DNA from: Liolophura sinensis
Lineage: Eukaryota > Mollusca > Polyplacophora > Chitonida > Chitonidae
NCBI RefSeq assembly: GCF_032854445.1
Contig: NC_088307.1
Coordinates: forward strand, 23,821,953 to 23,885,952
DNA length: 64,000 nucleotides
Direction: 5' to 3'
Within the stretch, counting starts at the first letter, position 1. Every line of letters begins with the position of its first letter. Below the pieces are notes generated by a model that saw nothing but the letters and a program-made list of their open reading frames with translations, did not search any database and was not told the DNA's origin. The position numbers and the translations under genes are program-made. Below are positions 2,385 through 64,000 of the stretch, in pieces.

Positions 2385-2516
2385 CTTTGGTATTCTTCGA
2401 CCTCGCCATGAAATTGTGTAGAAATAGATTTGGTGTTGCCCAGTCAGCCCCAATGTAACAGATTTAACACTTGTTTGAACTGTTTTCATAAAAACAAATT
2501 GTTTTCTTTTTTCCAG

Positions 2517-3197: not shown

Positions 3198-3287
3198 AGC
3201 ACGCTAGCGCAGCGTAATACCCAGGAGTCTCTCACCAATGCGGTCACTGTGAGTTCTAGTCCAGCTCATGCTGGCTTCCTCAAGAAT
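3198..3287 (+). mobile_element. SINE A head fragment, copy 1
   Basis: Only the tRNA-like head remains (cacgctagcgcagcgtaat, cactgtgagttctagtccag). The copy 2 ortholog is near 19357-19440. Confidence 0.75.
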
Positions 3288-3341
3288 AAATGTCAAGAAT
3301 TCTAACTTTTAATTAATCCTTGTATATTTGTCTTCTCACAG

Positions 3342-3546
3342 AAAGTTCGTGTTTGGGAGTTTTACGTCGTACTTGCTTTTATCTTCGTCCTGGATGTCAT
3401 TGTCTTGACGACATGGCAAGCCGTTGACCCGATGTTCCGTGACCTTGAATATTTTCCATACGAAGATCCTCAAGACACTGACGAGGACATAAAATACCAG
3501 CCCCAACTAGAACATTGTACTTCCAATAACTTAACAGTCTGGTTAG
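3342..3546 (+). CDS. GABBR1: GABBR1 copy 1, TM4/ECL2 exon
   Basis: 205 nt, phase 0 to 1. It begins [10 protein letters not shown] (TM4), continues through WQAVDPMF and an acidic extracellular loop 2, and ends at LEHC...NLTVWLG. The LEHC cysteine is the conserved disulfide partner of the cysteine at the top of TM3. NLT is a potential N-glycosylation site. The two differences from copy 2 are synonymous. Confidence 0.9.
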
Positions 3547-3936
3547 GTAAGCAAAACGAGAGATCAATCACTCTTTTAGGGATTTTATGTAGGATGCTAC
3601 ACTGCAAAAGTTTGTAGAACTAGAAGGCACTTCGAAAGACAATCATCCACAGCTAATTGTAAATATCCACACTACAGATGAAGGGATGATGCTCTTCATT
3701 TCTGTCATATTTTTAATGAGGGGAAAATCATTTTAAAAATTCCTTCATCATATACATATTATTACCAAAATTCAGTTGGCTGGAGCCAAGAGCATGGCCA
3801 TGTATTATCCAAGGCAATATATTACATTTTCTGTAACATTGCTGACAGACAGACACACAAGTAATGCCGATAGAATCAAGTAAAGAAATATACATGTAAA
3901 ATAAAAATTTTAATAGGTGTGGCCTAACTTAGTTTG

Positions 3937-3993
3937 TTTTTCAGATATTACATTTGGTTACACAGGAGTTTGACTTACATTGAGCCTGTTTTT
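3937..3993 (+). repeat. Decoy duplicate of the GABBR1 TM5 exon start (copy 1)
   Basis: A 57-bp imperfect tandem duplicate of the next exon's polypyrimidine tract, acceptor AG and first roughly 49 nt. The decoy acceptor (AG at 3943-3944) is exactly 57 nt upstream of the real one. Reading through from the decoy gives DITFGYTGV and then TGA, so it cannot be a functional coding extension. The same structure is in copy 2. Confidence 0.8.
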
Positions 3994-4001
3994 TTTTCCA
4001 G

Positions 4002-4129
4002 GTATTACATTTGGTTACAAAGGAGTTTTACTTATATTAGGTGTGTTTTTAGCCTATGAAACGAGGAGCGTCAAAATTAAACAAATCAACGACTCTCGTT
4101 TTGTGGGTATGAGTATATACAATGTGGTG
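4002..4129 (+). CDS. GABBR1: GABBR1 copy 1, TM5/ICL3 exon
   Basis: 128 nt, phase 1 to 0, encoding [20 protein letters not shown], then the intracellular loop 3 [10 protein letters not shown] and the start of TM6 (GMSIYNVV). Identical in both copies. It is preceded by the decoy acceptor at 3944. Confidence 0.9.
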
Positions 4130-4184
4130 GTAAGTACAGCTTATTCATACGATTCTTAATATAGTTTTATATTTAATACATAAT

Positions 4185-4250
4185 CAATTAATTATTAATT
4201 AATAATTGATTAATTATAATTCATTAATCAATTCATTGATGCCATTGTGT
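4185..4250. repeat. AT-rich near-palindrome in a GABBR1 intron
   Basis: The core attattaattaataat is a perfect palindrome flanked by aatca/tgatt arms. It is duplicated near 20348-20400 in copy 2. It could form a hairpin; no function is known. Confidence 0.6.
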
Positions 4251-4961
4251 TATTAATCAGCCAGTTGACATTTATAGGTAGATAATTTATGAAATGATCC
4301 AAGACCAAAGGCACGCAAATTTGTTTATAATTGTCATTTTTATGAAAATCCTTGTCTCATATTCAGTATTTTTTTTTTTTGGGATCATTACAATATTTGT
4401 TAAAAGCATGCTTACACAGGTATAAGCGGTACTAGAATGAGCCGAGTCAGCATTTCAAGAGTCCCGCGAGTTCACACAGATATGGATGAGATGGGGTGGG
4501 GGCTCTTTCAAACTGACAGAGCTAAAATGGGAGATTTTATGGTACTTGCTAGACTGACTACCTATCTCACACAGTCAGGTCTGTCAGCCCAACGGCACCA
4601 AAAAGGAGCTGCCGTAAGAGCATGCCTTTAGCTGTATATGTTTGCGAGAGCCCCCACCCCCTGTCTCGCCTTTACATGCATGAACTTGCGAGATTCCTGA
4701 AATACCAAATCAGCTTATTCCATGAACTAGAAGCATTTGAGTCTCCATGCCCGAAGTTATATTTTTGCACACTACAAAATCAACATAAAACTTAACATCA
4801 TATGAGTGAAATGTGCTTGAATGCAAAATTCAACATACAGGTATCTCTGACTCAGTTCAAGGGGCCTTCAGGTAACAGTAAGTGGTCTACAATGCTCTTG
4901 TAGCCATTGACGCAGTCAGCATCTATTTTTGACCACTTTGTGTGCATATTTGTACGTCACA

Positions 4962-5158
4962 CGTGCAAAAGTTTGTCAGTAACTTGTCAAAGGCCGGTGG
5001 TTTAACTCTGGCATTTCAGATTCCTCCAATTCACACATAACTGCCAGCGTAATGAAAAATTCTTGAGTATGGCATAAAATTGCAGTCCGATAAATGAATA
5101 AATAAATGAATAAATCAATGAATAAATAAACGAATAAATAAATGAATAAATAAATGAA
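4962..5158 (+). mobile_element. Diverged SINE 3' part with an (AATGAATAA)-type tail, copy 1
   Basis: An older SINE type whose body reads tttgtcagtaacttgtcaaa and ends attcttgagtatggcataaa, followed by a long AATAAATG-like microsatellite. The copy 2 ortholog at 21140-21368 has a longer tail. Confidence 0.65.
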
Positions 5159-5200
5159 AAAAGCCAAATTTAATCTGGTGTTATGAATTTGTCATGACAG

Positions 5201-5329
5201 GTCATGTGTGTCATCACAGCCCCGATCACCTTGCTTATCAGCAGTCAGCAGAACGCCACTTTTGTCTTCGTCTCATTGGCTATTATTCTCTGTAGCTTTC
5301 TTTCTATTGGTCTCATTTTTATACCAAAG
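5201..5329 (+). CDS. GABBR1: GABBR1 copy 1, TM6-TM7 exon
   Basis: 129 nt, 43 codons, phase 0 to 0. It encodes [20 protein letters not shown] and a second hydrophobic stretch [19 protein letters not shown] ending in PK, the TM7/cytoplasm boundary. One synonymous difference from copy 2. Confidence 0.9.
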
Positions 5330-5470
5330 GTAAGAACAATGCATCTTTTGCATATGGTAATCAAATAAAGTTTTTGTGCTGTTGTTTTTGTGGACTTGAT
5401 TTCAAGTCATGTACATGATTGTCAGATTTGTAAGCAATCCATGCAGGAAGGCTGTAATATCTGAGGGAGA

Positions 5471-5732
5471 GGGGCTTCTATGGCCTAGAGGGTGGTGTAC
5501 TGTAGTGCAGTGCAGTGCAGTGGGCAAGGAGCCTTTCACCAATGTGATTGCTGTGAGTTCAAGTCTATATTACACTGGCTTCCTCTCCTGTCATACCAGT
5601 GAGGATCTGACAGCAACCTGCAGATGGTTGTGGGTTTTGCCCGTTTTTTTCCCACCATAATGCTGGCTGCCATGGCGTAAGTGAAATATTCTTAAATATG
5701 GCATAAAACACCAATCAGATAAATAAGTACAT
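5471..5732 (+). mobile_element. Diverged full-length SINE A, copy 1
   Basis: Head gaggggcttctatggcctag with a local gtgca expansion, B-box-like gagttcaagtc, and a tail of ataaaacaccaatcagataa. Ortholog at 21672-21933. Confidence 0.8.
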
Positions 5733-5877
5733 ATCTGAGGAAGATGTTCACATCATATGTTGATCATATGGCCAGGATGTGTGATGATTTCCGTAGCAGA
5801 TATCCTTGGATCGGGCTGTACTGTATGAAGAGAGTCTCCAACTGGTTTGCTACAGCATTAAGTAAGGATATTTGCCA

Positions 5878-6005
5878 GGTATCCATTGTGGGATAGTGGT
5901 TTCCTCCCTGTGTATCCCAGTTTCCTCTGCCCGTACATGGATTGATTGTATAAGTGAAGTAGTCTTGAGTGTGGCATAAACACTAATCAGATTAAAAACA
6001 TAAAG
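5878..6005 (+). mobile_element. Old SINE 3' fragment, copy 1
   Basis: Diverged SINE A tail: tttcctcccn-type segment, ataagtgaagtagtcttgag and cataaacactaatcagatta. Ortholog near 22078-22203. Confidence 0.5.
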
Positions 6006-6657
6006 ACAGAAAATCTTGAAAAAATCTTAAAGGGGTCGCCCATATCTCACTTAAGTCAAACCTGTAAGGGCGCACTCTTAAAACTGATGTACTACGAACT
6101 AGACACAACTGCTCTGATGGTTACATGTACCTAATTAATATAAGCCAGGCCTCTCTACAACTGCACCCCGGATGAAGCAGTTGTGACTAGTTTCCGACTA
6201 CAATGTGTAGGTAGATCTAAAAGAATCAATACCTTGTCTCATACTTCTGGCTGTTTAGCCATTGAATCCAGGTCTTGCTGTCATGGTATTCTGGGAAGTG
6301 AACTAAGCTCTTCAATTCATTTCACTTCACTGATTTTCTTCTGAGATGAGGAGTCTTGTAGGCATTAAAGTTTAACCGAAGCATTTGTCAGAGGGATCAT
6401 TAAACAGGCTGGAGTTGTAAGTCACTATATTTTTGATTGATAACATAGTGTTGGTTTTTGATTTTGTCAATGTGCACCATTTTACTTTAATATGCAATTT
6501 CTCATTTATGCAGCATGACAAATATAAAAATGTATGCTCTTTAAACTTTATGTGGGATAGTCTATACACAGGGTCTAGGGTGTCTTTTTTTTTAAGACAT
6601 ACATGTTGCAGGGGAAACTTGAATCATTGAAACACACTTTACCGTTATTGTTTACAG

Positions 6658-16600: not shown

Positions 16601-19600
16601 GGTAAATGTAGATGACACTCAGTGGTAAATGTAGATTACATTCAGTGGTAAATGTAGATGACATTCAGTGGTAAATGTAGATGACATTCAGTGGTAAATG
16701 TAGATGACATTCAGTGGTAAATGTAGATGACATTCAGTGGTAAATGTAGATTACATTCAGTGGTAAATGTAGATGACATTCAGTGGTAAATGTAGATGAC
16801 ATTCAGTGGTAAATGTAGATTACATTCAGTGGTAAATGTAGATGACATTCAGTGGTAAATGTAGATGACATTCAGTGGTAAATGTAGATGACATTCAGTG
16901 GTAAATGTAGATGACATTCAGTGGTAAATGTAGATGACATTCAGTGGTAAATGTAGATGACATTCAGTGGTAAATGTAGATTACATTCACCAGTAAATAT
17001 AGATTACATTCAGTGGTAAATATAGGTGACATTCAGTGGTAAATGTAGATGACATTCAGTGGTAAATGTAGATGGCATTCAGTGGTAAATGTAGATGACA
17101 TTCAGCGGTAAATGTAGATGACATTCAGCGGTAAATGTAGATTACATTCAGTGGTAAATGTAGATGACATTCAGTGGTAAATGTAGATGACATTCAGTGG
17201 TAAATGTAGATGACATTCAGTGGTAAATGTAGATGACATTCAGTGGTAAATGTAGATGACATTCAGTGGTAAATGTAGATGACATTCAGTGGTAAATATA
17301 GATTACATTCAGTGGTAAATATAGGTGACATTCAGTGGTAAATGTAGATGACATTCAGTGGTAAATGTAGATGACATTCAGTGGTAAATGTAGATGACAT
17401 TCAGCGGTAAATGTAGATGACATTCAGTGGTAAATGTAGATTTACATTCAGTGGTAAATGTAGATGACATTCAGTGGTAAATGTAGATGACATTCAGTGG
17501 TAAATATAGATTACATTCAGTGGTAAATATAGGTGACATTCAGTGGTAAATGTAGATGACATTCAGTGGTAAATGTAGATGACATTCAGTGGTAAATGTA
17601 GATGACATTCAGCGGTAAATGTAGATGACATTCAGTGGTAAATGTAGATTACATTCAGTGGTAAATGTAGATGACATTCAGTGGTAAATGTAGATGACAT
17701 TCAGTGGTAAATGTAGATGACATTCAGTGGTAAATGTAGATGACATTCAGTGGTAAATGTAGATGACATTCAGTGGTAAATGTAGATTACATTCAGTGGT
17801 AAATGTAGATTACATTCAGTGGTAAATGTAGATGACATTCAGTGGTAAATGTAGATGACATTCACCGGTAAATGTAGATGACATTCACCGGTAAATGTAA
17901 ATTACATTCAGTGGTAAATGTAGATTACATTCAGTGTAAATGTAGATGACATTCAGTGGTAAATGTAGATGACATTCAGTGGTAAATGTAGATTACATTC
18001 ACCGGTAAATGTAGATTACATTCACCGGTAAATGTAGATTTAATTTTAAACCTGAATCAAGAGTTAAGTAACATGGTTCAAATGCATAACAGTTATATGA
18101 CTGGTCATAATACTCCTAAGAACAGTATTTATTCAGTTGACAGTATGCAATATTATATAATATTGCAATGTTGCAATATTATATAAACCGTATTCAATAT
18201 TATATAAACCATATTATATAATGTTACATTATCAATGTTAAAATATATTGTTGTATATTATCACACTGTCGTTGCTGCTCTGGGTTTACTCTTCATACAT
18301 GTGTATGTACTTAACCTTAAATGGCCTTATTGGAGCAGGGATGCGCCACCCATTCTACACTGTATGGTTGTGCAAGATCTTTGGTATTCTGTATGGTTGT
18401 AAGTGGGAAGGTCTTCCAGTAACCTGCAGATGGTCGTGGGTTTCCCAAGCCCGGTTTCCTCCCACCATAATGCTGGCCGTCGTCGTATAAGTGTAATATT
18501 CTTGAGTAATGTGTAAAACACCAGTTAAATAAATAAATAAATCTTTGGTATTCTCCGACCTCGCCATGAAATTGTGTAGAAATAGATTTGGTGTTGCCCA
18601 GTCAGCCCCAGTGTAACAGATTTAACACATGTTTGAACTGTTTTCATAAAAAACAAATTGTTTTCTTTTTTCCAGGCCCGTGCTTGGTTACTGTCGTTTG
18701 GTTTCACATTTGGCTATGGTTCCATGTTCTCTAAAGTCTGGACAGTCCATAGGGTAACGACGCTAAGGAAGAAAAATAGAAGGGTAAGGGGTATAGGTTT
18801 GCACAGCATAATGGCCTAATGGCTCAACCCTTTACCGATCTGTTTCGTTTGCCTCGCGATGCTCACCTTAACGTCGTCCGTCACTCACAGCTAGTCTATT
18901 GTATTAACCGACAAGCGCCAGGTGTAAACGCTGTTCTGTGCCACTCGTCACGTGACCTGGAAAAGGAAATGCAAACAGGGGCTGTACTACACATAATTGC
19001 TTTATGCATAAACACTATTTTCAGGGTATAAATACTCATGAAAAAGGCCCTAAAGGACTGAATTATCGCCATATCAAAATATTTTGGGGGTAATCCTGAT
19101 TGGGAGATTTAAAAGCACATTAATCGTGTATTGGGTGTCACATGCCATTCACGAATATGGTATTAACATTATTAAAACTACACGAGAAAATTTATTCACC
19201 CCATGTGAGAAAATTATCATTTTATAGTTGCCACAGATCGGTGGTTTACCCCAAATTCTCTCCTGTCCTCCACCCTTATAAATGGCAGCCATACTGTATC
19301 ATTCAAGTGAAAAGTGCTTGAGCACCAGAGTTAAACAGAAAACCATCTATCTATCGAGGCACGCTAGCGCAGCGTAATACCCAGGAGTCTCACCATGCGG
19401 TCACTGTGAGTTCAAGTCCAGCTCATGCTGGCTTCCTCAAGAATAAATGTCAAGAATTCTAACTTTTAATTAATCCTTGTATATTTGTCTTCTCACAGAA
19501 AGTTCGTGTTTGGGAGTTTTACGTCGTACTTGCTTTTATCTTCGTCCTGGATGTCATTGTCTTGACGACATGGCAAGCCGTTGACCCGATGTTCCGTGAC

Positions 19601-22600
19601 CTTGAATATTTTCCATACGAGGATCCTCAAGACACCGACGAGGACATAAAATACCAGCCCCAACTAGAACATTGTACTTCCAATAACTTAACAGTCTGGT
19701 TAGGTAAGCAAAACAAGAGATCAGTCAGTCTTTTAGGGATTTTATGTAGGATGCTACACTTCAAAAGTTTGTAGAACTAGAAGGCACTTCGAAAGCCAAC
19801 CATCCACAGCTAATTGTAAATATCCACACTACAGATGAAGGGATGATACTCTTCATTTCTGTCATATTTTTAATGAGGGGAAAATCATTTTAAAAATTCC
19901 TTCATCATATGCATATTATTACCAAAATTCAGTTGGCTGGAGCCAAGAGCATGGCCATGTATTATCCAAGGCAATATATTACATTTTCTGTAACATTGCT
20001 GACAGACAGACACACAAGTAATGCCGATAGAATCAAGTAAAGAAATATACATGTAAAATAAAAATTTTAATAGGTGTGGCCTAAGGAGTTTGACTTATTT
20101 TGTTTTTCAGATATTACATTTGGTTACACAGGAGTTTGACTTACATTGAGCCTGTTTTTTTTTCCAGGTATTACATTTGGTTACAAAGGAGTTTTACTTA
20201 TATTAGGTGTGTTTTTAGCCTATGAAACGAGGAGCGTCAAAATTAAACAAATCAACGACTCTCGTTTTGTGGGTATGAGTATATACAATGTGGTGGTAAG
20301 TACAGCTTATTCATACGATTCTTAATATACTTTTATATTTAATACGTAATCAATTAATTATTAATTAATAATTGATTAATTATAATTCATTAATCAATTC
20401 ATTGATGCCATTGTGTTATTAATCAGCCAGTTGACATTTATAGGTAGATAATTTATGAAATGATCAAGAACAAAGGCACGCAGATTTGTTTATAATTGTC
20501 ATTTTTATGAAAATCCTTGTATCATATTCAGTATTTTTTTTTTGTTGGGGGGGGGGGGGGGGGGGGAATCATTACAATATTTGTTAAAAGCATGCTTACA
20601 CAGGTATAAGTGGTACTAGAATGAGCCGAGTCAGCATTCAAGAGTCCCGCGAGTTCACACAGGTATGGATGAGACGGGGTGGGGGCTCTTTCAAACTGAC
20701 AGAGCTAAAATGGGAGATTTTATGGTACTTGCTAGACTGACTACCTATCTCGCACAGTCAGGTCTGTGAGCACAACGGCACCGTTAGGAGCTGCCGTAAG
20801 AGCATGCCTTTAGCTGTATATGTTTGCGAGAGCCCCCACCCCTTGTCTCGTCTCTACATGCATGAACTTGCGAGATTCCTGAAATACCAAATCAGCTTAT
20901 TCCATGAACTAGAAGCATTTGAGTCTCCATGCCCGAAGTTATATTTTTGCACACTACAAAATCAACGTAAAACTTAACATCATATGAGTGAAATCTGCTT
21001 GAATGCAAAATTCAACATACAGGTATCTCTGACTCAGTTCAAGGGGCCTTAAGGTAACAGTAAGTGGTCTACAATGCTCTTGTAGCCATTGACGCAGTCA
21101 ACAGCCATTGTTGACCACTTTTGTGTGCATATTTGTACGTCACACGTGCAAAAGTTTGTCAGTAACTTGTCAAAGGCCGGTGGTTTAACTCTGGCATTTC
21201 ACATTCCTCCAATCCACACATAACTGCCAACGTAATGAAAAATTCTTGAGTATGGCATTAAATTGCAGTCCGATAAATGAATAAATAAATGAATAAATAA
21301 ATGAATAAATAAACGAATAAATAAATGAAAAAATAAATGAATAAATAAACGAATAAATAAATGAAAAAAGCCAAATTTAATCTGGTGTTATGAATTTGTC
21401 ATGACAGGTCATGTGTGTCATCACAGCCCCGATCACCTTGCTTATCAGCAGTCAGCAGAATGCCACTTTTGTCTTCGTCTCATTGGCTATTATTCTCTGT
21501 AGCTTTCTTTCTATTGGTCTCATTTTTATACCAAAGGTAAGAAACAATGCATCTTTTGCATATTGTAATCAAATAAAGTTTTTGTGCTGTTGTTTTTGTG
21601 GACTTGATTTCAAGTCATGTACGTGATTGGCAAATTTGTAAGCAATCCATGCAGGAAGGCTGTAATAGCTGAGGAGAGGGGCTTCTATGGCCTAGAGGGT
21701 GGTGTACTGTAGTGCAGTGCAGTGGGCAAGGAGCCTTTCACCAATGTGATCGCTGTGAGTTCAAGTCTATATTACACTGGCTTCCTCTCCTGTCATACCA
21801 GTGAGGATCTGCCAGCAACCTGCAGATGGTTGTGGTTTTGCCCGTTTTTTTCCCACCATAATGCTGGCTGCCATGGTGTAAGTGAAGTATTCTTAAATAT
21901 GGCATAAAACACCAATCAGATAAATAAGTACATATCTGAGGAAGATGTTCACATCATATGTTGATCATATGGCCAGGATGTGTGATGATTTCCGTAGGAG
22001 ATATCCTTGGGATCGGGCTGTACTGTATGAAGAGAGTCTCCAACTGGTTTGCTACAGCATTAAGTAAGGGATAGTTGCCAGGTATCCATTGTGGGATAGT
22101 GGTTTCCTCCCTGTGTATCCCAGTTTCCTCTGCCCGTACATGGATTGATTGTATAAGTGAAGTAGTCTTGAGTGTTGCATAAACACTAATCAGATTAAAA
22201 ACATAAAAGACAGAAAATCTTGAAAAAATCTTAAAGGGGTCGCCCATATCTCACTTAAGTCAAACCTGTAATGGCGCACTCTTAAAACTGATGTACTACG
22301 AACTAGACATAACTGCTCTGATGGTTACATGTACCTAATTAATATAAGCCAGGCCTCTCAACAACTGCACCCCGCATGAAGCAGTTGTGACTAGTTACCG
22401 ACTACAATGTGTAGGTAGATCTAAAAGAATCAATACCTTGTCTCATACTTCTGGCTGTTTAGCCATTGAATCCAGGTCTTGCTGTCATGGTATTCTGGGA
22501 AGTGAACTAAGCTCTTCAGTTCATTTCACTTCACTGATTTTCTTCTGAGATGAGGAGTCTTGTAGGCATTAAAGTTTAACCTAAGCATTTATCATAGGGA

Positions 22601-24440
22601 TCATTAAACAGGCTGGAGTTGTAAGTCAGTATAGTTTTGATTGATAACATAGTGTTGGCTTTTGATTTTGTCAATGTGCTTCATTTTACTTTAATATGCA
22701 ATTTCTAGGGTCTAGGGTTGTCTTTTTTTTTAAAGACATACATGTTGCAGGGGAAACTTCAATCATTGAAACACACTTTACCGTTATTGTTTACAGGTGA
22801 TACAGCTGGTGAGGAATCCACACAAAGAGGGAATAGAAATCAAGGCTATGTCCGACTCTATGGCCAGTCGTGAGGAAGAGGAGAGACACCAGCGCCTCCT
22901 GGTGGAGAATGAGGAACTAAAACAACACATAGCAGAGGTATGACATATCATAACTGTATTTATGTACAGACAGCAAGTCTTTGCAACTTATCATAATTGG
23001 TGGCTTTCTATCTGGTTGTACTCTCAGGTTTAACACCACGTTTTATGCCAGGGATTGAAATTAAGGTAGTGTGGAAGAGGGTTTTAAAATCTGTCATTCG
23101 TTTGTGTAGAAAGAACTTTGCTGCATTTTTTTTTTATGTTGAGATGGCTTACATAAGTATTTTTTCTTTTCATTTTTCATTCCTGTAATATCTTGGGAGT
23201 AGATAATAACATAACTTATTATTTACATATGTTGTCCATCTGAAAAGTACATTAGCTGAAAAAAAATCCAGTAATCATAAATTTTAAAATGGAATTCTGA
23301 GAGTGGTGTAGTAAACTTTTTTTCCATCAAAGGCTTGATAACATGGCTGGGTTTACTGAGGGTGATGGCTCAGTATTTTCTGGGGGAGATCAATTACACT
23401 GTAGCTACAAAACCAACCTTTAGTCGGAGATAAACTGGCTATTAAGGTTATGAACTTGCACTTGTGCACAGAACTAGGTTCACTGTGTGTAGGTTGTCCA
23501 GTTTTGTCTCACTGTATGTTGTGCCATTTTGTCCAACTCTAAGCTATGCTGTTTTATTCCAGTGTTTGCTCCACTGTTTTGTCCCACAGTAAGATGTGCC
23601 ATGTTTTTCCCACAGCAAGATGTGTTATAATTTGTCCTACTGAAGTTTATGCTCTTTTGTCCCACTGTAGGTTGTGCCATTTTTTCCAGTTGTCAGTTCT
23701 GGCCTTTTGGCCCACCCTCAGTTGTGCCATTTTGTCCCACTGTCAGTTCTGGCCTTTTGGCCTATCATCAGCTGTGCCATATTTTGTCCCACTGTCAGTT
23801 CTGGCCTTTTGGCCTATCATCAGTTGTGCCATATTTTGTCCCACAGTCAGTTTTGGCCTTTTGGCTCACTCTCACTTGTGCCATTTTGTCCCACTGTCAG
23901 TTCTGGCCTTTTGGCCTATCATCAATTGTGCCATATTTTGTCCCACTGTCAGTTCTTGCCTTTTGGCCTATCATCAGTTGTGCCATATTTTGTCCCACTG
24001 TCAGTTCTGGCCTTTTGTGCCGTATTTTGTTCCACTGTAAGTGGTCCTGTTTTGTCCCAGTGTATCTTGTACCATGTTGTCCCACTGTAGGTTGTGAAGT
24101 TTTGTCCGACATATGTAGAGCAATTACTAACACTTTGTACTTTTCTTTGCAGAGAGAGGACAAAATCCGTGAGCTAAATCGGCGAGTGTTGAGCAAATCC
24201 CAGCCAAAGTGCGTCACAATACAGACAGAAGAGAGTTCTGACATCCTGGCAGATCACAACCCACACCCAGCCAAGACAAATGCCTGTGTTGTGTCTTTTA
24301 CAAACTTATCTCCCTTGACAATAGGCGGTGGCTCGCCTGATGATTTAGGCGTATCGATCGACGCCGATTCGGGCCTCGCCAGCAGTTCAATGGCAAAGAG
24401 CTCCAAAAATTCTGCTTCAGATTCGGAGCCTTACTGCTGA
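10291..24440 (+). CDS. GABBR1: GABA-B receptor subunit 1, 3' exons, copy 2 (main copy)
   Basis: Seven exons: 10291-10424, 18676-18783, 19499-19703, 20168-20295, 21408-21536, 22797-22937 and 24153-24440. Together they encode roughly 377 residues: TM2, ECL1, TM3 to TM7, the cytoplasmic coiled coil and the C-terminus. The receptor is a class C GPCR that binds GABA through an extracellular Venus-flytrap domain and works as a heterodimer with GABBR2. The flytrap and TM1 exons must lie outside the window or be missing from the assembly. Exons from 18676 on are all open with matching phases. The TM2 exon contains a one-base frameshift. The mammalian RSRR ER-retention motif is not visible after the coiled coil. 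The nearest match by memory is insect and molluscan GABA-B-R1. Confidence 0.85.
10855..11424 (+). repeat. 17-bp minisatellite, about 33 units
   Basis: Unit aagcttgtgtagccatt, with variants such as aagcttatgtagccatt and extra ttaagcttt spacers. Intron of GABBR1 copy 2. Confidence 0.95.
12603..13600 (+). repeat. 33-bp minisatellite, about 30 units, stop-free on both strands
   Basis: Unit gtatggaacaccaacatatg then taaatacttggat. Because 33 is a multiple of three, long open frames appear on both strands (about 304 codons plus strand, 344 minus strand, repeating 11 residues). These are not supported as genes. Confidence 0.95.
13631..13660. repeat. (AT)n microsatellite
   Basis: Uninterrupted AT dinucleotide run. 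Confidence 0.95.
14897..15450 (+). other. 554-bp indel unique to copy 2
   Basis: Copy 1 runs straight from aaatgatga to gttttcagaaaa (near 656). Copy 2 has 554 extra bases here, including a SINE 3' fragment (15052-15173) and ending in a T-rich run. No gene is visible in it. Confidence 0.85.
15052..15173 (+). mobile_element. SINE A 3' fragment inside the copy 2 indel
   Basis: Contains tttcctcccatcataatgcc, acggcataaaacaccaatta and a TAAA tail. Confidence 0.75.
15690..15972 (+). mobile_element. tRNA-derived SINE (family A), copy 2 ortholog
   Basis: Same insertion as 898-1180, with head ggccccgtggcccagttgg and a B-box-like ttcaagtccagc. It shows the insertion predates the split of the two segments. 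Confidence 0.88.
16361..18039 (+). repeat. 23-bp minisatellite, about 73 units (copy 2 allele)
   Basis: Same unit and flanks as 1570-1961 but about 1,680 bp long. Sub-blocks repeat as higher-order groups, for example those containing the variant ataggtgacattcag. Confidence 0.95.
18242..18305 (+). repeat. Dispersed repeat D, copy 2 segment
   Basis: attatcacactgtcgttgct then gctctgggtttactcttcat, the ortholog of 2105-2180. Confidence 0.65.
18391..18540 (+). mobile_element. 5'-truncated SINE A with a 14-bp target duplication
   Basis: Flanked by perfect copies of atctttggtattct at 18377-18390 and 18541-18554. The head is missing and the tail is AAATAAATAAATAA. Confidence 0.88.
18676..18783 (+). 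CDS. GABBR1: GABBR1 copy 2, TM3/ICL2 exon
   Basis: 108 nt, phase 0 to 0, with the same protein as copy 1: [33 protein letters not shown]. The intron before it is about 8.2 kb and carries the 17-bp, 33-bp and 23-bp arrays. Confidence 0.92.
19357..19440 (+). mobile_element. SINE A head fragment, copy 2
   Basis: Ortholog of 3198-3287, with gtgagttcaagtccagctca intact. Confidence 0.75.
19499..19703 (+). CDS. GABBR1: GABBR1 copy 2, TM4/ECL2 exon
   Basis: 205 nt, phase 0 to 1. It encodes TM4 ([16 protein letters not shown]), WQAVDP, an Asp/Glu-rich extracellular loop 2, the LEHC disulfide cysteine and an NLT glycosylation sequon. Confidence 0.92.
20103..20159 (+). repeat. Decoy duplicate of the GABBR1 TM5 exon start (copy 2)
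   Basis: The 57-bp duplicate seen in copy 1, with its decoy acceptor AG at 20109-20110, again 57 nt before the true exon start. Slightly more upstream exon-like sequence (ggagtttgacttat) survives here than in copy 1, suggesting a third, older unit. Confidence 0.8.
20168..20295 (+). CDS. GABBR1: GABBR1 copy 2, TM5/ICL3 exon
   Basis: 128 nt, phase 1 to 0, identical to copy 1. It encodes the [20 protein letters not shown] helix and loop, then [15 protein letters not shown]. Confidence 0.92.
21140..21368 (+). mobile_element. Diverged SINE 3' part with an expanded tail, copy 2
   Basis: Ortholog of 4962-5158. The AATAAATG/AATAAACG tail is longer, a length difference between the two copies. Confidence 0.65.
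21408..21536 (+). CDS. GABBR1: GABBR1 copy 2, TM6-TM7 exon
   Basis: 129 nt, phase 0 to 0. It encodes [15 protein letters not shown] (TM6 and ECL3) and [18 protein letters not shown] (TM7). Confidence 0.92.
21672..21933 (+). mobile_element. Diverged full-length SINE A, copy 2
   Basis: Same insertion as 5471-5732, with one fewer gtgca repeat in the head. Confidence 0.8.
22078..22203 (+). mobile_element. Old SINE 3' fragment, copy 2
   Basis: Ortholog of 5878-6005. Confidence 0.5.
22797..22937 (+). CDS. GABBR1: GABBR1 copy 2, proximal tail/coiled-coil exon
   Basis: 141 nt, phase 0 to 0. It starts at the TM7-proximal [12 protein letters not shown] and runs into the Glu/Leu-rich coiled coil ([14 protein letters not shown]), the predicted contact with GABBR2. 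Confidence 0.92.
23491..24108 (+). repeat. About 26/52-bp minisatellite before the last GABBR1 exon (copy 2)
   Basis: Allelic or paralogous counterpart of 7357-8097, about 120 bp shorter, with a different order of unit variants. Confidence 0.9.
24153..24440 (+). CDS. GABBR1: GABBR1 copy 2, last coding exon
   Basis: 288 nt including TGA at 24438-24440; 95 residues, intact. It begins [15 protein letters not shown] (end of the coiled coil) and continues with a Ser/Asp-rich tail ([17 protein letters not shown]) ending SDSEPYC. The acceptor (ttctttgcag) lies about 40 bp after a VNTR that fills the end of the preceding intron. Confidence 0.9.
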   Translation, partial: REDKIRELNRRVLSKSQPKCVTIQTEESSDILADHNPHPAKTNACVVSFTNLSPLTIGGGSPDDLGVSIDADSGLASSSMAKSSKNSASDSEPYC

Positions 24441-34344: not shown

Positions 34345-35290
34345 TCTAGAGAGTAAAAGTAGAGCAGTGACGACAGTGTGATAGTAGTACAGCATGGAGA
34401 GTAAAACCAGAGCAGCGACGACAGTGTGATAGTAGTACAGCATAGAGAGTAACACCAGAGCAGTGACGACAGTGTGATAGTAGTACAGCATAGAGAGTAA
34501 AACCAGAGCAGTGACGACAGTGTGATAGTAGTACAGCATAGAGAGTAAAACCAGAGCAGTGACGACAGTGTGATAGTAGTACAACATGGAGAGTAAAACC
34601 AGAGCAGTGACGACAGTGTGATAGTAGTAGAGCATAGAGAGTAAAACCAGGGCAGTAACGACAGTGTGATAGTGGTACAACATGGAGAGTAAAACCAGAG
34701 CAGTGACGACAGTGTGATAGTAGTACAGCATGGAGAGTAAAACCAGAGCAGTGACGACAGTGTGATAGTAGTACAGCATAGAGAGCAAAACCAGAGCAGT
34801 GACGACAGTGTGATAGTAGTACAGCATAGAGAGTAAAACCAGAGCAGTGGCGACAGTGTGATAGACGTACAGCATAGAGAGCAAAACCAGAGCAGTGACG
34901 ACAGTGTGATAGTAGTACAGCATGGAGAGTAAAACCAGAGCAGTGACGACAGTGTGATAGTAGTACAGCATAGAGAGTAAAACCAGAGCAGTGACAACAG
35001 TGTGATAGTAGTACAGCATAGAGAGTAAAACCAGAGCAGTGGCGACAGTGTGATAGACGTACAGCATAGAGAGCAAAACCAGAGCAGTGACGACAGTGTG
35101 ATAGTAGTACAGCATGGAGAGTAAAACCAGAGCAGTGACGACAGTGTGATAGTAGTACAGCATAGAGAGTAAAACCAGAGCAGTGACGACAGTGTGATAG
35201 TAGTACAGCATAGAGAGTAAAACCAGAGCAGTGACGACAGTGTGATAGTTGGCAAATGGTTAGACATATTACCAACGAACGGGGGGCAGG
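34345..35290 (-). repeat. 48-bp minisatellite, about 19 units, built from dispersed repeat D
   Basis: Minus-strand unit tatcacactgtcgtcactgct then ctggttttactctctatgctgtactac. The final unit (35220-35275) ends in the single-copy flank gatagttggcaaatggt. The open frames of 298-401 codons on the minus strand (16-residue period) follow from the multiple-of-three unit. Confidence 0.93.
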
Positions 35291-53276: not shown

Positions 53277-54187
53277 TTAAGCAAATGAAGCACTGTATCG
53301 CCGCCTTATATTTACTTTCTGACTATGAGTTCCTGCAGGGCCCGTATGAAGGCGCGTTGTCAGCGCAGAACCCAGCGACAGTTTTGATGGTGCGCTGTTA
53401 CCCCCTGGAAGGCGCAATATAACTGTTCCCACCGCGGCGATTCCATCGTCTGTGGGCTCCACAGCAATGGGGGCAAGGTTAAATGGGCACTCACGCCCGG
53501 GGGTTGGATTGCTCCCCGTATTCGACGGATCCACATGATTGGTGCGGATTTTGGGAAGCCGATTGTTTCTTCGTGTGAACGCTGGCTGTAGGCCTGTCAC
53601 AGGTTCTTGTTCTATGTAAACGAGGACACGTGCAAATGGTCGCGACGCCATGTGTTTCATTTCCCGGGCGCGCTGCTGGCGTGTTCGCCTGGCGTCGAAT
53701 GTCTGCTTCACTTTCCACAACAACACACATTTGGCCAAGAACAGGAAAAAACAGGAGAAAAACACTGAGAAGAACACGAAGAGATCTATATGGGGCTGAT
53801 CCTGCCTGAAGTACAAGCTCCCGAATGTCTTGTTGCTGGAAGTGATGCCGCGGCTGCGCAAAATCACATAAAACCTAGAGGAACGTAAGTTATGGACGTC
53901 CAAGGGCAGTGTGATGACCAATCGGAAAGTGACGTTCTTGACCAGCAGCAGAGTCTTGGCGTAGTCCACTGTGACAAACGTGTTGAGCTCGTTAGCCTCC
54001 ATCTCCAGCTTTCTATAACTGCTCTTGTCGTGAGAGCAGTTCACTATGTTTCGCCGCTGCCCATGGAAAACCGTGTTCTGACCGGACATTAAATGGTAGT
54101 TGGGGTCGATGAGAACTGTGTGAAACCCAAGAGGGTCAACGTCCACCAAGAATGTGTCTTCACACGGCGAGAAATACACATCTGCAG
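53277..54187 (-). CDS. MEGF8: MEGF8 last coding exon: membrane-proximal domain, TM helix, cytoplasmic tail
   Basis: 911 nt, phase 1, TAA at 53277-53279. About 145 extracellular residues start ADVYFSPCEDTFLVDVDPLG and carry sequons NCS, NVT and NKT. They are followed by RQDQPHIDLF, one membrane helix of about 23 residues, a basic stop-transfer (WKVKQTFDARRTRQQRAREM), MASRPFARV (the motif linked in this family to E3-ligase recruitment), then EPTDDGIAAVGTVILRLPGG. A continuous frame extends upstream of the acceptor, but the clean tttccttttcag and the phase match to 55317 favour the splice. Confidence 0.92.
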
Positions 54188-57100
54188 CTGAAAAGGAAAA
54201 GAAACAAACCCAAATCAGAAATGACAAGTACTTATGAGATTCTCTGATACCTGAATTGATGTACATGTAACCAAGTTTTCAGTGGCATGCCACTAGTTCT
54301 GTAGCAGATCTCTAGCATTCCACTGCTATTCACCTAGCCTTCATCTGCTGAGAGAGCAATAATACTGTAGATGGCCTTGGTGCCAATAAACAGTTAATGC
54401 CAACTGTGAGGCCATTTCTGCAGTCTATGTACTGATAATCACTCATCTTCCTCCAATATGGTTTACGGTTTCGTTGGCCCGGGGGTTAGAGCGTGCACCT
54501 CAAAGTCGGGAAATCCGGGATCAAACATGGGTGGTGTCATCCAAAATTTTACAAATGGTACTAGTTGCTGCCTGGCTTGGTGCTCAGCACTGATAGGTTA
54601 GAGCAAGGAAACAGGACTGGTTGGCACGGTGTCAGTATAATTTGACCGGGTAGGGTGTCACGTATGGCATGATAATTTGACCGGTCAGGGTGTCACGTAT
54701 GGCATGATACATGTACTTCAGTGGCAGCAGAACTTTGGCGGCACTGGACGCTGGTGCTACAAGAAGATACAGTGTATGTACACACACCTAATGACTCGAT
54801 GTCGTCATATGACTGAAATTGGGAAGTAGGACATTACACCCCAAGCATTCATTCCTCTCACATGATTTGCATATCTCTATACCACAAGTGGGAAAGTTTA
54901 TCAGTTACTCGCCAAAGGTCAATGGTTTACCACTGAAACTTAAGTTTCTTCAACTCCTAAAGCAGTCATTCTATAAAAGACAAATTCCTAAGTATGGCAT
55001 TAAACCACTATCAGAATAATTAATATGTAAGGGTAGCAGCTTTCCACTCCTCATGGGAATTTCACTTTAGCTCATCTAGTAGATCGATGAATTTTGAATG
55101 TGGAGAAAAATACCCACGTTGTCCTTGAGTATGGCATTAAACCACAATCAGATTAATAAATATGGCATGGGAGCATCTTTTCCAGCAGCAGCTAGTAGGG
55201 ATTTTCATTGTGGCTCAGTTGTTAGAGTTAGAATCCTGTTGACGTGGTGACCATAGTTCAAATCCCGGTGTGACTCACACAGCAAATCTTTCAAATATGT
55301 CACAGTCGTTACTCACCTCCCATTGTGACGTCCACAGTGATGCGGATGTTCACATTAAGGTACTTGGGTTGCACCGAGAAGAAGACGGTGCGGCCCTGGT
55401 GCAGCGGTGGGGGTTCGGGATTGCACCGATTCTGTGTGACGGGATCAAAGCAGTAGTCTTGTTCCATGGTCATGTGACGATAACACTGGTGACCGTTGAT
55501 TGGATGACCTAGGAAGTACTCCTTACAGCTCGAGCACTGGATAAAAAGAATGAAAACAATAGATATAACTATTTCTGAGTGCCCAAAATAAATAAATAAA
55601 TAAATAACCACAATGGTGAAGCAGCATATGAGGTTGCACTATAGTGTGAAGTATTTATTTATTTCATTTCATTGGTATTTTACGCCGTACTCAAGAATAT
55701 TTCACTTATACGACGATGGATAGTGTGAAGTAAGATCTGCTACATCAAGAACTGTTATTTATTTATTTATCTGATTGGTGTTTTACACCGTACTCAAGAA
55801 TATTTCACTTATGTGACGGCGGCCAACATTATGGTGGGTGGCACAGGCCGGGGGAAACCCACGACCATCCGCAGGTTGCTTGCAGACCTTCCCACTTACG
55901 GCCAGAGAGGAAGCCAGCATGCGCTGGACTTGAACTCACAGCGACCGCATTGGTGAGAGGCTCCTGGGCCATTACGCTGCGCTAGCGCGCTAACCGACTG
56001 AGCCACGGAGGCCCCCTCAAGAACTGTTAGTAGTGCAATGCCCACAATGTTACAATGCACTGGTTTCTAATGTAAGAGCACACATGTATACTGGTTTTAA
56101 TGTGATGTCATTATGATGAATTGAGAAAGGAACGTTTGATGTCAATAAAATGGCGACAGATCCTGCCTTTTGGCATACGCTGGGTTCTCAATAAAATGGC
56201 AACAGATCCTGCCGTTTGGCGTTTGCTGGGTTCTCAATAAAATGGCGACAGATTCTGCCGTTTGGCGTTCGCTGGGTTCTCAATAAAATGGCGACAGATT
56301 CTGCCGTTTGGCATTCGCTGGGTTCTCAATAAAATGGCGACAGATCCTGCCGTTTGGCATTTGCTGGGTTCCCAATAAAATGGCGACAGATCCTGCCGTT
56401 TGGCGTTTGTTGGGTTCTCAATAAAATGGCGACAGATCCTGCCGTTTGGCGTTCGCTGGGTTCCCAATAAAATGGCGACAGATCCTGTCGTTGGCGTTTG
56501 CTGGGTTCCCAATAAAATGGCGACAGATCCTGTCGTTGGCGTTTGCTGGGTTCCCAATAAAATGGCAACAGATCCTGTCGTTTGGCATACGCTGGGTTCC
56601 CAATAAAATGGCGACAGATCCTGCCGTTTGGCATTTGCTAGGTTCCCAATAAAATGGCAACAGATCCTGCCGTTTGGCATTTGCTAGGTTCCCAATAAAA
56701 TGGCAACAGATCCTGCCGTTTGGCATTTGTTGGGTTCTCAATAAAATGGCGACAGATCCTGCCGTTTGGCGTTCGCTGGGTTCTCAATAAAATGGCAACA
56801 GATCCTGCCGTTTGGCGTTTGCTGGGTTCCCAATAAAATGGCAACAGATCCTGCCGTTTGGCGTTTGCTAGGTTCCCAATAAAATGGCAACAGATCCTGC
56901 CGTTTGGCGTTTGCTAGGTTCCCAATAAAATGGCGACAGATCCTGCCGTTTGGCGTTTGCTGGGTTCCCAATAAAATGGCGACAGATCCTGTCGTTTGGC
57001 GTTCGCTGGGTTCCCAATAAAATGGCAACAGATCCTGCCATTTGGCGTTTGCTGGGTTCTCAATAAAATGGCGACAGATCCTGCCGTTTGGCGTTTGCTG

Positions 57101-60100
57101 GGTTCCCAATAAAATGGCAACAGATCCTGCCGTTTGGCGTTTGCTAGGTTCCCAATAAAATGGCGACAGATCCTGTCGTTTGGCGTTCGCTGGGTTCCCA
57201 ATAAAATGGCAACAGATCCTGCCGTTTGGCGTTTGCTAGGTTCCCAATAAAATGGCGACAGATCCTGTCGTTTGGCGTTCGCTGGGTTCCCAATAAAATG
57301 GCGGCAGATCCTGCCATTTGGCGTTTGCTGGGTTCCCAATAAAATGGAGACAGATCCTGCCGTTTGGCGTTTGCTAGGTTCCCAATAAAATGGCGACAGA
57401 TCCTGCCGTTTGGCGTTCGCTGGGTTCTCAATAAAATGGCGGCAGATCCTGCCGTTTGGCGTTCACTGGGTTCCCAATAAAATGGCAACAGATCCTGTCG
57501 TTTGGCGTTCGCTGGGTTCTCAATAAATGGCAACAGATCCTGCTGTTTGGCGTTTGCTGGGTTCCCAATAAAATGGCAACAGATCCAGCTGTTTGGCGTT
57601 TGCTGGGTTCCCAATAAAATGGCGACAGATCCTGCCGTTTGGCGTTCGCTGGGTTCTCAAAAAAATGGCAACAGATCCTGTCGTTTGGCGTTTGCTAAGT
57701 TCCCAATAAAATCAGGATGACATTACAATCCAACTGATAAACGTGTTCCTGTACATGGGATGGTCTGGCAGCAATCTGTGGATGGTCATGGGTTTCCTCT
57801 GGGCTCTACCCAGTTTCCTCCCACAATAATGTTGGCTGTCATTGTATAAGTGAAATATTCTTGAGTATTCAGTGTAAAACACAAATCAAATATGTAAATA
57901 AATTAAAGCGCTTGCCCTTCAATCCCCAAGTCACAATCCCATTCTCAAACAGAGAATTTTTTCTTAGCATTCCTCTGCTTCAGAACCTTATCAGGTAAAA
58001 ATCGGCCATTGATCAGATCTTGCATTTCACCAAAATAACATATGTCACAGGTGAGAAAGTTCACTAGTAAATCACCCTAGGTCTGCGGTTTACTCTAGTT
58101 ACCTCATGATGTAAAACTGATCACGATGGCATGAACCTATAATTAGCTTCATTACTACTTCGCTGGACATTAGCTGTCTACCATCAGAAAAACAGGTTTC
58201 CTCTGATACAGCACACATGTACAATCTGATAGTGAGAATGGTCAGCAATCTGAGTAATTCTATACCTGTAATGTCTCACAACTTGCAGTTAACATCACAG
58301 CATTTTTTTTAACCTAATTCCGCATAAGCCATCGTGCTATGCTACTATACATACATGAAACAGAATAAAACCCTAACTGAGCTAAGCTGACAAGAGGCTA
58401 TATTTCACTGGATACATCTGACAATTTGTCAACTATAACACTGCCGTTGATGCTCTGTTTTTACTCTCTTTGCTGTATTGTAAGTCTTTAATCATATGGA
58501 AAGAGTACCACACGAGTGTCTTTGACAAAGCATATCAACTGCAGGTGAGAATGGCAAGTCATGGAGAGAGTACCTCATGTCTAGCTCTTTACCTGTTTCT
58601 GCCAACACGGTTTCTTCTCCTTGCTATCCTTGTTGCAGCTCGTCTCTGTGTTGTTTCGGCAATCGCAGTCCTCACCTGTCAGCTCATTGCAGGTGGCGCT
58701 GTGCCCATTACACTGACACCTGCAATCAGGGGAGATAACAACTGCTGGTTAGCTTGATTGTTTTGGGGTTTCCAGTCGTTTTTAACATTATCTGGGTGAC
58801 ATAATTCCGTGAAGTATGGTATGCCAGTACTTAACCAGAAACAGGGCTGGATGAGTAGGTTATCTGAGTAAACACTTACTTGAGACAGGGCTGGATGGGT
58901 TTGTTATCTGAGTAAACACTTACTTGAGACAGGGCTGGATGGGTTTGTTATCTGAGTAAACACTTACTTGAGACAGGGCTGGATGGGTTTGTTATCTGAG
59001 TAAACACTTACTTGAGACAGGGCTGGATGGGTTTGTTATCTGAGGAAACACTTACTTGAGACAGGGCAGTCCGAGTTGGTTATCTGAGTAAACACTTACT
59101 TGAGACAGGTTGGATGAGTACATGCAGGTTATCTGAGTAAGCATTTAACTGAGACGGGGCTGTCCGAGTTGGTTATCTGAGTAAACACTTATTTGAGATG
59201 GGTTGGATGAGTAGGTTATCTAAGTAAAAATTTACTTGAGACAGGGCTGTCCATGTTGTCTCCCTCAGTAAACACTTACTTGAGACAGGGCTGTCTGGGT
59301 TGGGTATATGGGTAAACACTTACATGAGAAAGGGCTTTATGAGTTGATCCTCTGAGTAAACACTTACTTGAGACAGGGCTGTCTGAGTAAACACTTACTT
59401 GAGACGAACTGGATGAATAGGTCATCTGAGTAAACACTTATTTGAGACAGGTTGTATCATTAGGTTGTCCGAGTAAACACTTGCTAGACAGGGGTGGAGG
59501 AGTAGGTTATCTGAGTAAACACTTATTTGAGACAGGTTGGATCAGCAGGTTATCTGAGTAAACACTTATTTGAGACAGGTTGGATCAGTAGGTTATCTGA
59601 GTAAACACTTACTTGAGAGAGGCTGTATGAGTTAATTCTCTGAGTATACACTTGCTAGAGACAGGGGTGGAGGAGTAGGTAATCTGAGTAAACACTTATT
59701 TCAGACAGGTTGGATCAGCAGGTTATCTGAGTAAACACTTATTTGAGACAGGTTGGATCAGCAGGTTATCTGAGTAAACATTTACTTGAGAGAGGGCTGT
59801 ATGAGTTGATTTTCTGAGTAAACACTTACCAGAGACAGGGGTGGAGGAGTAGGTTATCTGAGTAAACACTTATTTCAGACAGGTTGGATCACCAGGTTAT
59901 CTGAGTAAACATTTACTTGAGAGAGGGCTGTATGAGTTGATTCTCTGAGTAAACACTTACCAGAGACAGGGGTGGAGGAGTAGGTTATCTGAGTAAACAC
60001 TTATTTCAGACAGGTTGGATCACCAGGTTATCTGAGTAAACATTTACTTGAGAGAGGGCTGTATGAGTTGATTCTCTGAGTAAACACTTACCAGAGACAG

Positions 60101-63100
60101 GGGTGGAGGAGTAGGTTAATCTGCATAAACACCTATCTGAGACAGGTTGGATGAGTAGGTTATCTGAGTAAACACTTGAGAGAGGCTGTATGAGTAGATT
60201 CTCTGAGTAAACACTTACCAGAGACAGGGGTGGAAGAGTTAGTTGTTTGAGTGAGCGCTTACTTGAGACAGGGCTTCACGGGTTGGTTGTTTGAGTACTT
60301 ACTTGAGACAGGGCTGGATGAGTTGGTTGTCCTGGCGTATCCTGAAGTATCCCACAAGGCACTTGTCACAATGTTCCATGGTTGTGTTGTGCTGACATGA
60401 CAAACACACTGCATCTTCTTCCTTGGGGCCTGTCCTTATCTTGCTCAACTGCAACAACGACACCTATAATAATTGAACACCGCATCTCCGCATGCTGTTT
60501 CATGCAACTTGATCAGTTTTACGAATGTTCTATTCCATCAAATATCTTTCACTTATTGGTACTTAACACTAAACAACTAACATTTTCAAATAAATGTTGG
60601 CAACAGTTTTCTTCCTTCTTTTGTATATCTATTCATTTATTTGATTGTTGTTTTAGGCCATACTCAAAAATATTTCACTTATATAAAGGCTACCAGCCTT
60701 ATGGTGGGAGAGTCTGGGGGAAACCCATGAACGTAAGTAGGCTGTTGGGAGGCCTTCCCAAGTTCGGGCGGGGTAAGAAGCCAGCATAAGCTGGAATTGG
60801 GAACTCATAGTGTCCGCATTGGTGGGAGACTCCTGGTTCATTGTCCCGTGCTGACGTGCTAACCCGATCAGCCACGGAGGCCCTCAGACACGGAGACCCT
60901 CAATTGAGCTTTAAGTGAATGGTCCAGATTCAAAAATTTGTTCGTTCGAAAAAGAGGCTCAAGTGATTTTACACAGATAGTGGTTGCTATTCAAATCTTG
61001 TTCTAACCAGCTTTGGGTAGACCACATTTTTTAAGTATACAGACCTGATTTTCACTAATTCTTTGTGAGGCATAGTCAAGGCCATATGCTATGCTCTCTT
61101 CATAGGTCACGCAGAAATCTGTATGGTTATTGCAGAACTCTCGACAAGAAATACACGACTTCCCATCTCTGGGATCGCCCACAAAAAATGGCTTACACAA
61201 GCTGCACTGGTGACCCTGTATTTAGAAGGATGTTCACAAAAAGGTTTAACTTCAAGAATCTAAAAATAAATGTTCTAATTTATGTTTATATTTGTTTATT
61301 TCATTGTTGCTTAATGCCACACTTAAGACTTTTTCACTTATATGATGCAAGTTTAATGGATAGAGGAAAGTAAAATACCTGGGAAATACCACAGGCCTTT
61401 GGCAAATTACTAATGAATTTTCTCACACATGATGAACGCAGTTATGCACACCATATTAATGGAGACATGTTTTTCTACTCCGTCAGTGACAAGTAAGCCC
61501 ATGATGTACAAAGACACAAACATCTGTTACCCAAGGAGGACATGTAGTTTCTAGCTTCAGGACTGTCTTACAGAGTATAGCCCAAAGCTAACCTGGACAC
61601 TCCTCCCGTAACCCCCAGCTTCGCTCATATGGACTTGCACGTGGACAATTTCAATAAAACAGTAATCCAGCCAATTAAACTTTTGAATTGGGCAAACCAA
61701 ACTAACATCTGGCATGTTTAGAATTTTTTTTTTCAACTTGGGGCAGGGTGATAAGCCGTGAAAATTTGATCCCAGCCAACATTCTGTAACAGGGAATGCA
61801 ATTCTTTTACATGCAGTTTACATACCAACATAGCAAAAATATTGTGTCCTTTAAGAATTGCATGCCCTGTAAACAGAATGTTTTCCGCAGCACATCACCC
61901 ACCCTGAAGGTGACAAAAAAATTCCAAACATGGCGGACGTTAAATTGGTTTGCCAGATTCAAAAGTTTAAATGGCTGGATTAATATTGAAAGATTGTTTA
62001 CCTATGCCGGCTTTCACGTTTACAGTCTGTTCAGTATGTTTACATCAGGGAATTGGTGGATAACAAAAATAAGGTAGGGTTCAAGCCATTGTTTTTATTG
62101 AAATTGTCTGCTGTGAAAGTCCACGTGACCCAAGCTGGGCGTTACAGTAGGAATGTCCAACTTAGCTTTGGTCTAATATAATACTGTAATTCTTCAACCT
62201 TTTCCTGTGATTGCAAGGTGCTTGTTCAAGCACATTCTGTGCAGGCTGATACAATTACACTTTTTGTAAAGCCCTGAAATTGGCCAACCTGACCAATGTA
62301 ATTTTGCAGTCAATGTAGATAATGTTATGAAACAGATACAGCAGATAAATAAGCCACTGAGAAAAACTTGCACAACACAACAACAGCAGCAACTCTTACC
62401 ATGGTATTGTTGGAACAGCCAGTACAAACAGTGGTTTCATTTTCACTTTTACAGTTGCTGTGCTTGTTACACTGACACTCCACGGAGCAGTTCCGTCCGA
62501 CCCAGCCGAAGTCACAAGCGCAGTCGTCTGGGCGGACACATCGTCCCCGGATACAGCCTTGGTTACACTGGGGTACGCACTCCAATTGACTGCAAATTAA
62601 CAAGCAAATTCAGAGCATTTAGTACATACTTGTTATATGTCAAATCTTTTGCATGGAGCAAGCTGGTTTTCAAACCTGATTTGAGGTGCTATAAAATGAA
62701 CCAGAAAAAAACATGAACAAACAATTTCCTCTTTTGAGGCTCTCAAATATCGATCCATTCTAAACATATTTGCCGTCAACGGATGAAAACTATCATAGAT
62801 CTTCAGATTTTTCTGAATTTCCTATTTTTTCAAAAGGTTTCTGATCATATAAATATGTCTTCAACAGGAAAACTTGCTTGTACAATTCAAATTTACCACA
62901 AATCAGATGATTTTTTTTTCTTTTATACCCTCCTTCGACATCGAAAAAAAAAATTGATTCTGTTCCAACAATTAAAACTGTTGTCTATAACATATTGTTT
63001 TTAATAGTGGAGCTGATGAGCCTAAAACAACAGATCACATTCAATTATGGCAGACACATTCACTGCCTACCCTTTTTACTTCCCATAACTCTCAAATACC

Positions 63101-63689: not shown

Positions 63690-64000
63690 CCCCATTCCAC
63701 AAAGTGATCAAAGGCTAAGCTGAGGGTAACTACTTGGAGGGAAACAGGGCCTGGTTCCACAAAGTGAGCAAAGGCTAAGCTGAATGTAACTACTCGGAGG
63801 GAAACAGGGCCTGTTTCCACAAAGTGATCAAAGGCTAAGCTGAACGTAACTACTCGGAGGGAAACAGGGCCTGGTTCCACAAAGTGAGCAAAGGCTAAGC
63901 TGAATGTAACTACTCGGAGGGAAACAGGGCCTGGTTCCACAAATTGATCAAAGGCTAAGCTGAACGTAACTACTCAGAGGGAAACAGGGCCTGGTTCCAC
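63690..64000 (-). repeat. 60-bp tandem repeat running off the window
   Basis: Unit ccacaaagtgatcaaaggct then aagctgaacgtaactactcggagg gaaacagggcctggtt (plus strand), at least five units. A 20-residue period appears as an open frame on the minus strand and is a repeat artefact. Confidence 0.9.

Follow-up and report, generated by a model that had tools for sequence, protein, structure and literature searches.

The human IFI6 gene reportedly carries, at its exon 2/intron 2 border, a repeat with units of 12 bp. This minisatellite has been described as a supplier of multiple splice donors, with two downstream repeat units reportedly used as donor sites (PMC4526556). Moreover, an intronic variable number tandem repeat (VNTR) of ABCA7 and a VNTR of MIR137HG are reported to alter splicing (PMC5954066, PMC6692358), and the potato RdRp gene is reported to have gained an intron through tandem duplication (PMC4974935). 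Here we describe a minisatellite that occupies an intron of a MEGF8 gene in the chiton Liolophura sinensis, within a stretch of 64,000 nucleotides (the window, G000:C13:23821953-23885952 of a 609-Mb, 632-contig genome). Its repeat unit spans the exon/intron border and carries a donor, as in the IFI6 type, and the likeness between the two is that of a minisatellite with donor-bearing units. The short IFI6 units are reportedly used as donors, whereas the MEGF8 array has units of ~44 bp that include 29 exon bases, numbers 34 intronic units, and would yield a stop if an internal unit were used. The ABCA7 and MIR137HG VNTRs have in common with it the theme of tandem repeats reported to act on splicing, and the titles and opening abstract lines of those papers mention neither an exon-end origin nor donors within the units. 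Tandem duplication is the link to potato RdRp; there a new intron reportedly arose, whereas in MEGF8 an existing intron was filled.

The array runs from 60331 to 58829 on the minus strand (positions are those of the window) and comprises 35 units according to wraparound alignment, namely an exonic unit 0, with 29 exon and 11 intron nucleotides, and 34 intronic units, the last of which is partial. It occupies 1474 of the 1583 bases of the intron directly after exon 60448-60303, and periods of 43-44, 87, and 131 were obtained across its intronic part with Tandem Repeats Finder (TRF). The unit consensus, GATAACCTACTCATCCAGCCCTGTCTCAA/GTAAGTGTTTACTCA, consists of 29 exon-derived and 15 intron-derived bases with GTAAGT among the latter, and the units, each tens of bases long, follow one another head to tail, as those of a minisatellite do. 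The last 29 exon nucleotides were identical to the best intronic unit at 26/29 positions and matched the intronic units at 23.2/29 on average, compared with at best 18/29 in the rest of the window (either strand), at best 19/29 in 200 shuffles, and no more than 19/29 for exon segments (sampled every 4 nt) that begin no further downstream than 60352. A preliminary description of this DNA had proposed a ~44-bp repeat in the MEGF8 intron that holds the exon end with its splice donor and was amplified from the exon/intron border; the repeat and its similarity to the exon end survived careful alignment, and the homology above controls supports a start of amplification at that border. The unit does combine the exon end with GTAAGT, as described there, with 29 rather than ~22 exon bases and with 15 intron bases that include GTAAGT rather than follow it, and besides the exonic unit the large tandem array has 34 intronic ones instead of about 30 copies. 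The 131-bp higher-order block was also recovered, with 132/132, 129/132, and 129/132 alignment columns in agreement across units 5-7, 8-10, and 11-13. The identity of this three-unit block and of units 30-33 indicates recent exchange within the array, of which units 30-33 are probably the most recently homogenised part.

By homology, the gene on the minus strand is a MEGF8 orthologue, its exon limits being read from sequence and homology. An open frame at 53277-54278 matched the solved MEGF8 chain 9qqs_B (E 6.6e-53) over the transmembrane and C-terminal region, and the exon after the array, an LE module beginning CQCNGH, matched MEGF8 chain 9qty_B (E 1.2e-5). The exons on either side of the array join in frame on translation (...QPCLK/CQCNGH), and the joined pair gave a Pfam hit to EGF_LMN_ATRN (6.9e-9), with the matched residues within exon 60448-60303. 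The full MEGF8 architecture comprises CUB, Kelch, and PSI domains, which are expected upstream of the window.

In the account that we favour, and hold to be probable as a whole, a segment of ~41-44 bp astride the MEGF8 exon end and 5' splice site would have been tandemly duplicated into the intron, in a genome very rich in minisatellites, and would have expanded to 34 intronic units via slippage or unequal exchange, the three-unit block being amplified too. Coding selection would preserve the exonic copy, with drift among the intronic ones. Most transcripts probably use the authentic donor, since any internal donor would give an immediate stop; the internal sites would be a low-level source of non-productive mRNA at most, and the array would have no selected function. 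While we infer the order of events, the neutrality, and the actual splice choice, the anatomy of the array, its homology to the exon end, the identity of the gene, the stops, and a second case in this genome are shown by the sequence. The array genuinely records, in good preservation, how a minisatellite was born at an exon border, and it most likely has no function.

The two edges of the array bear on its origin. AAGTACT, without the TGTT of most units, occurs within the array at these edges only (60300 and 58832), which is what an ancestral intron beginning GTAAGTACT/GGCATACC would predict; the original intron start may have been GTAAGTACTGGCATACC, with a first duplication reaching from within the exon to just past GTAAGTACT. 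An ACAAC variant of the exon is common to the adjoining units 1 and 2 and is found elsewhere in unit 20 only. Sequence identity by itself is symmetric, and with the most exon-like units (30-33) near the distal array edge, the reverse direction may also be considered, in which the array is the older of the two and supplied the exon end from one of its units. However, against the LE domains of perlecan and netrin the exon end aligns with its cysteine in place and with near-normal spacing, any gaps being small, the next exon carries MEGF8 on in frame, and the AAGTACT state is retained at both array edges, and we consider such exonisation very unlikely. The LE alignment points to the exon as source rather than product of the array, and the exon probably preceded it. 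A dispersed or transposon-borne satellite, of which another array in the window, with a 48-bp unit and dispersed single copies, may serve as an example, or a misassembly would be a highly improbable explanation, as the MEGF8 array unit was found here only in the 609-Mb genome (counts being lower bounds), and the units are diverged and ordered and lie within a 30-Mb contig.

The choice of one 5' splice site among close look-alikes is a long-standing question, and the MEGF8 intron offers a natural graded series of donors before one acceptor. Fifteen internal GTAAGT sites occur among the 34 intronic units (16 with the authentic donor), and not the dozens of decoys claimed in the preliminary description; a column tally gives 16 internal sites, the inserted T of the last unit being dropped there, and the true count is 15. 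GT is retained in 21/34 intronic units, while ATAAGT is present in 8/34 and GCAAGT in 2/34. Scoring of the predicted U1 duplex, for which the earlier claim was that some variants surpass the authentic donor, placed one real site at -7.0 kcal/mol, 11 internal sites about equal to it (ten CAA/GTAAGTGT at -7.5 and one CAT/GTAAGTGT at -7.4), and four CTG/GTAAGTGT sites clearly stronger at -11.0, in agreement with that claim; three of these four lie inside the 131-bp higher-order block. With the predicted cost of opening structure included, the other 11 decoys drop behind the authentic donor. Beyond the authentic donor the reading frame continues as AAG TAA, and a coding array was rejected on account of this stop. 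In computed translations, any of the 15 internal GTAAGT joined to 58719 leads to the same truncated product (...QPCLK-stop). The sole AG/GT recursive (zero-length exon) site seen by eye was a weak TAG/GTGTTT in unit 4, and recursive splice sites were rejected.

Several observations count against the favoured account of border-seeded duplication, drift, and mostly authentic splicing. Among the six inferred MEGF8 donors in the window (range -7.0 to -12.4 kcal/mol), the authentic donor beside the array ranks last in strength, and the predicted U1 duplex is at least as good as the authentic one in 15/15 internal GTAAGT sites and much better in four. Even after the structure-opening cost, the CTG sites outdo the authentic donor in 4/4 cases with a 40-nt span and 3/4 with a 100-nt span; genuine mis-splicing at these sites, potentially regulated, is thus plausible under the folding model. 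Moreover, variability is lower in the donor columns (0.095) than in the exon-derived columns (0.153). Units do not become less similar to the exon with distance, the best (30-33, 26/29) being near the far end, which does not help to order the duplications; graded divergence from the exon was rejected, as far units match the exon best.

Such donors could act as a splicing rheostat, in which certain tissues splice from internal sites, chiefly CTG/GTAAGTGT at 60218, to give stop-containing MEGF8 mRNA and copy number tunes protein output. The four sites with stronger predicted U1 pairing and the immediate stop after every internal GTAAGT are consistent with this, as is the reported use of human IFI6 repeat units as donor sites (PMC4526556). 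However, the donor positions show no special conservation: the minor-base frequency at +1 G, one of the more variable columns, is 0.30 (30% of units differ), and among six-column windows the donor window ranks 15/39 in conservation. In addition, the extended exons of 357 nt and more would be poor exons under exon definition, and we regard the rheostat as unlikely. The rest of the intron part is the least variable (0.040 versus 0.095 for the donor columns). Clear selection on the decoys was not seen in column variability across the array units; the donor-column variability would suit drift, and the competition for U1 or buffering that the preliminary description had entertained is unsupported by the +1 G, donor-window, and donor-column values.

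It may also be asked whether the array silences itself by RNA structure, with the TGTT that is found in most intronic units and absent at the real donor forming a hairpin that buries each decoy. Consistent with such an effect, the authentic donor ranked first in accessibility among the 16 under each of three folding settings; with a 40-nt span, in silico removal of TGTT lifted the decoy median accessibility from 0.024 to 0.070 and its addition at the real donor cut accessibility from 0.38 to 0.09, the corresponding changes with a 100-nt span being 0.009 to 0.020 and 0.092 to 0.006, and a hairpin of -7.5 kcal/mol was predicted at the CTG sites. By contrast, the non-CTG decoys were ordinary in comparison with 44 other GTAAGT sites in the window, TGTT ranked 12/64 among GTAAGT-keeping insertions for burying the donor (11/64 on the CTG background), the CTG sites were about equally buried without TGTT, and folding z-scores against shuffles ranged from -1.8 to +1.8 in four array pieces. 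These controls do not support self-silencing, which we judge most improbable, and TGTT as a selected silencing feature was rejected, its effect on CAA-type sites being no greater than that of many random insertions.

To place the array in its genomic setting, minisatellites with periods of 10-150 and at least four copies were surveyed. They made up 12.9% of bases (35 arrays) in a 200-kb sample of 20 fetched 10-kb stretches from contigs C1-C4, 15.8% (15 arrays) in the window, and 22.7% (seven arrays) in 30 kb beyond the window. At least three GTAAGT occurred in the MEGF8 array alone within the window, in 0/35 arrays of the 20 sampled 10-kb stretches, and in none of those in the 30 kb beyond. 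Genome-wide, a triple spaced GTAAGT pattern gave 9467 matches (5087 + 4380) versus 20008 (9113 + 10895) for the reversed control; donor arrays were not shown to be enriched genome-wide, and this control is perhaps inflated by ATGA-type simple repeats. The first 100 places listed for the pattern represent 12 arrays, in C1 at 0.32-2.92 Mb, of which one has a clear exon end (L036), one abuts an exon (L042), and one is doubtful (L038, with a 20/30 match and a 33-aa frame without PDB or Pfam hit). The 5' edge of two more (L037 and L039) was not reached in the sequence examined, and beside 7/12 no recognisable exon was seen by eye, as judged without database search. Array L036, examined first since its unit looked coding, follows a DUF4457-encoding exon (E 4.2e-55 for the joined exons as inferred), presumably KATNIP-like. 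This exon ends in CTCCTGTTCTGCCTCATGTG/GTAAGT, and in the 1017-nt intron lies a 42-bp array, with GTAAGT occurring 12 times when the authentic site is included; the 20 exon-end bases recur exactly in one array unit and altered in the others. Considering this second exon-end array in the same genome, the MEGF8 array is not unique. At L042 the donor position is ambiguous, as the NAA60 match ends 15 residues short of the array's GTAAGT, and the unit could be exon-end or purely intronic.

By extrapolation from 12 arrays per 100 listed places, GTAAGT arrays may number ~1,100 in the genome, and, taking the 1 to 3 exon-end cases among the 10 arrays that could be assessed (a small eyeballed sample from one end of one contig), exon-end arrays would occur in one to a few hundred genes. 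Exon-end arrays look like a recurrent by-product of minisatellite birth, which can seize exon borders repeatedly in a repeat-rich genome. That they form a recurrent class here in which a copy-number-variable donor ladder sets the share of productive mRNA is a bolder proposal, to which we give small credence; if true, splicing efficiency would evolve through repeat length.

Table 1. Features of the MEGF8 locus (window positions) and of GTAAGT arrays elsewhere in the genome
Feature	Position	Strand	Basis or remark
Exonic unit 0, 29 exon-end bases homologous to array	60303..60331	-	Alignment
Intronic part of array: 11 intron bases of unit 0, then 34 units of ~44 bp	58829..60302	-	Wraparound alignment; TRF
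Higher-order repeat: 131-bp block of three units, present in three near-identical copies	59728..60121	-	Column identity
Four identical 44-bp units (units 30-33)	58865..59040	-	Wraparound alignment
Authentic 5' splice site CAA/GTAAGTAC	60297..60302	-	U1 duplex -7.0 kcal/mol
Strong internal donor CTG/GTAAGTGT	60213..60218	-	84 nt downstream of exon; predicted U1 duplex -11.0; CLK-stop if used
Strong internal donor CTG/GTAAGTGT	60086..60091	-	U1 duplex, opening cost, CLK-stop if used
Strong internal donor CTG/GTAAGTGT	59955..59960	-	U1 duplex, opening cost, CLK-stop if used
Strong internal donor CTG/GTAAGTGT	59824..59829	-	U1 duplex, opening cost, CLK-stop if used
Coding exon, LE/EGF-like module, ...GYFRIRQDNQLIQPCLK	60303..60448	-	End phase AA/G
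Next coding exon, CQCNGHSATCNELTGEDC...	58593..58719	-	Preceded by acceptor TTGCAG/
Last coding exon, MEGF8 transmembrane/C-terminal region	53277..54187	-	Acceptor read from sequence; 5' limit approximate
L036, second exon-end minisatellite	L036:1253-2104 (own genome C1, 2771800-2774800)		Unit ~20x in following intron
L042, GTAAGT array adjoining NAA60-like acetyltransferase exon	L042:750-901 (own genome C1, 936500-937400)		E 5.2e-32
L037, array with strong donor-like units CTCAG/GTGAGG, CAG/GTAAGT	L037:1-1650 (own genome C1, 535800-537800)		Beside aminotransferase class-III coding stretch, opposite strand

Other tandem repeats were observed in the window. The next MEGF8 intron contains a large minisatellite (56143-57712; 46 bp, 34 copies), and the 48-bp minisatellite at 34347-35249 has single copies near 2133, 18259, 34055, 35431, and 58451, as if the unit with its dispersed short copies had been born within a mobile element. 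A segmental duplication (2234-6502 and 18389-22706) is 95.9% identical, and the same 23-bp minisatellite stands before each copy, with ~17 and ~73 repeats, respectively. Finally, a 60-bp tandem array with a minus-strand open frame (63695-64000) lies upstream of the MEGF8 exons, at the edge of the window.

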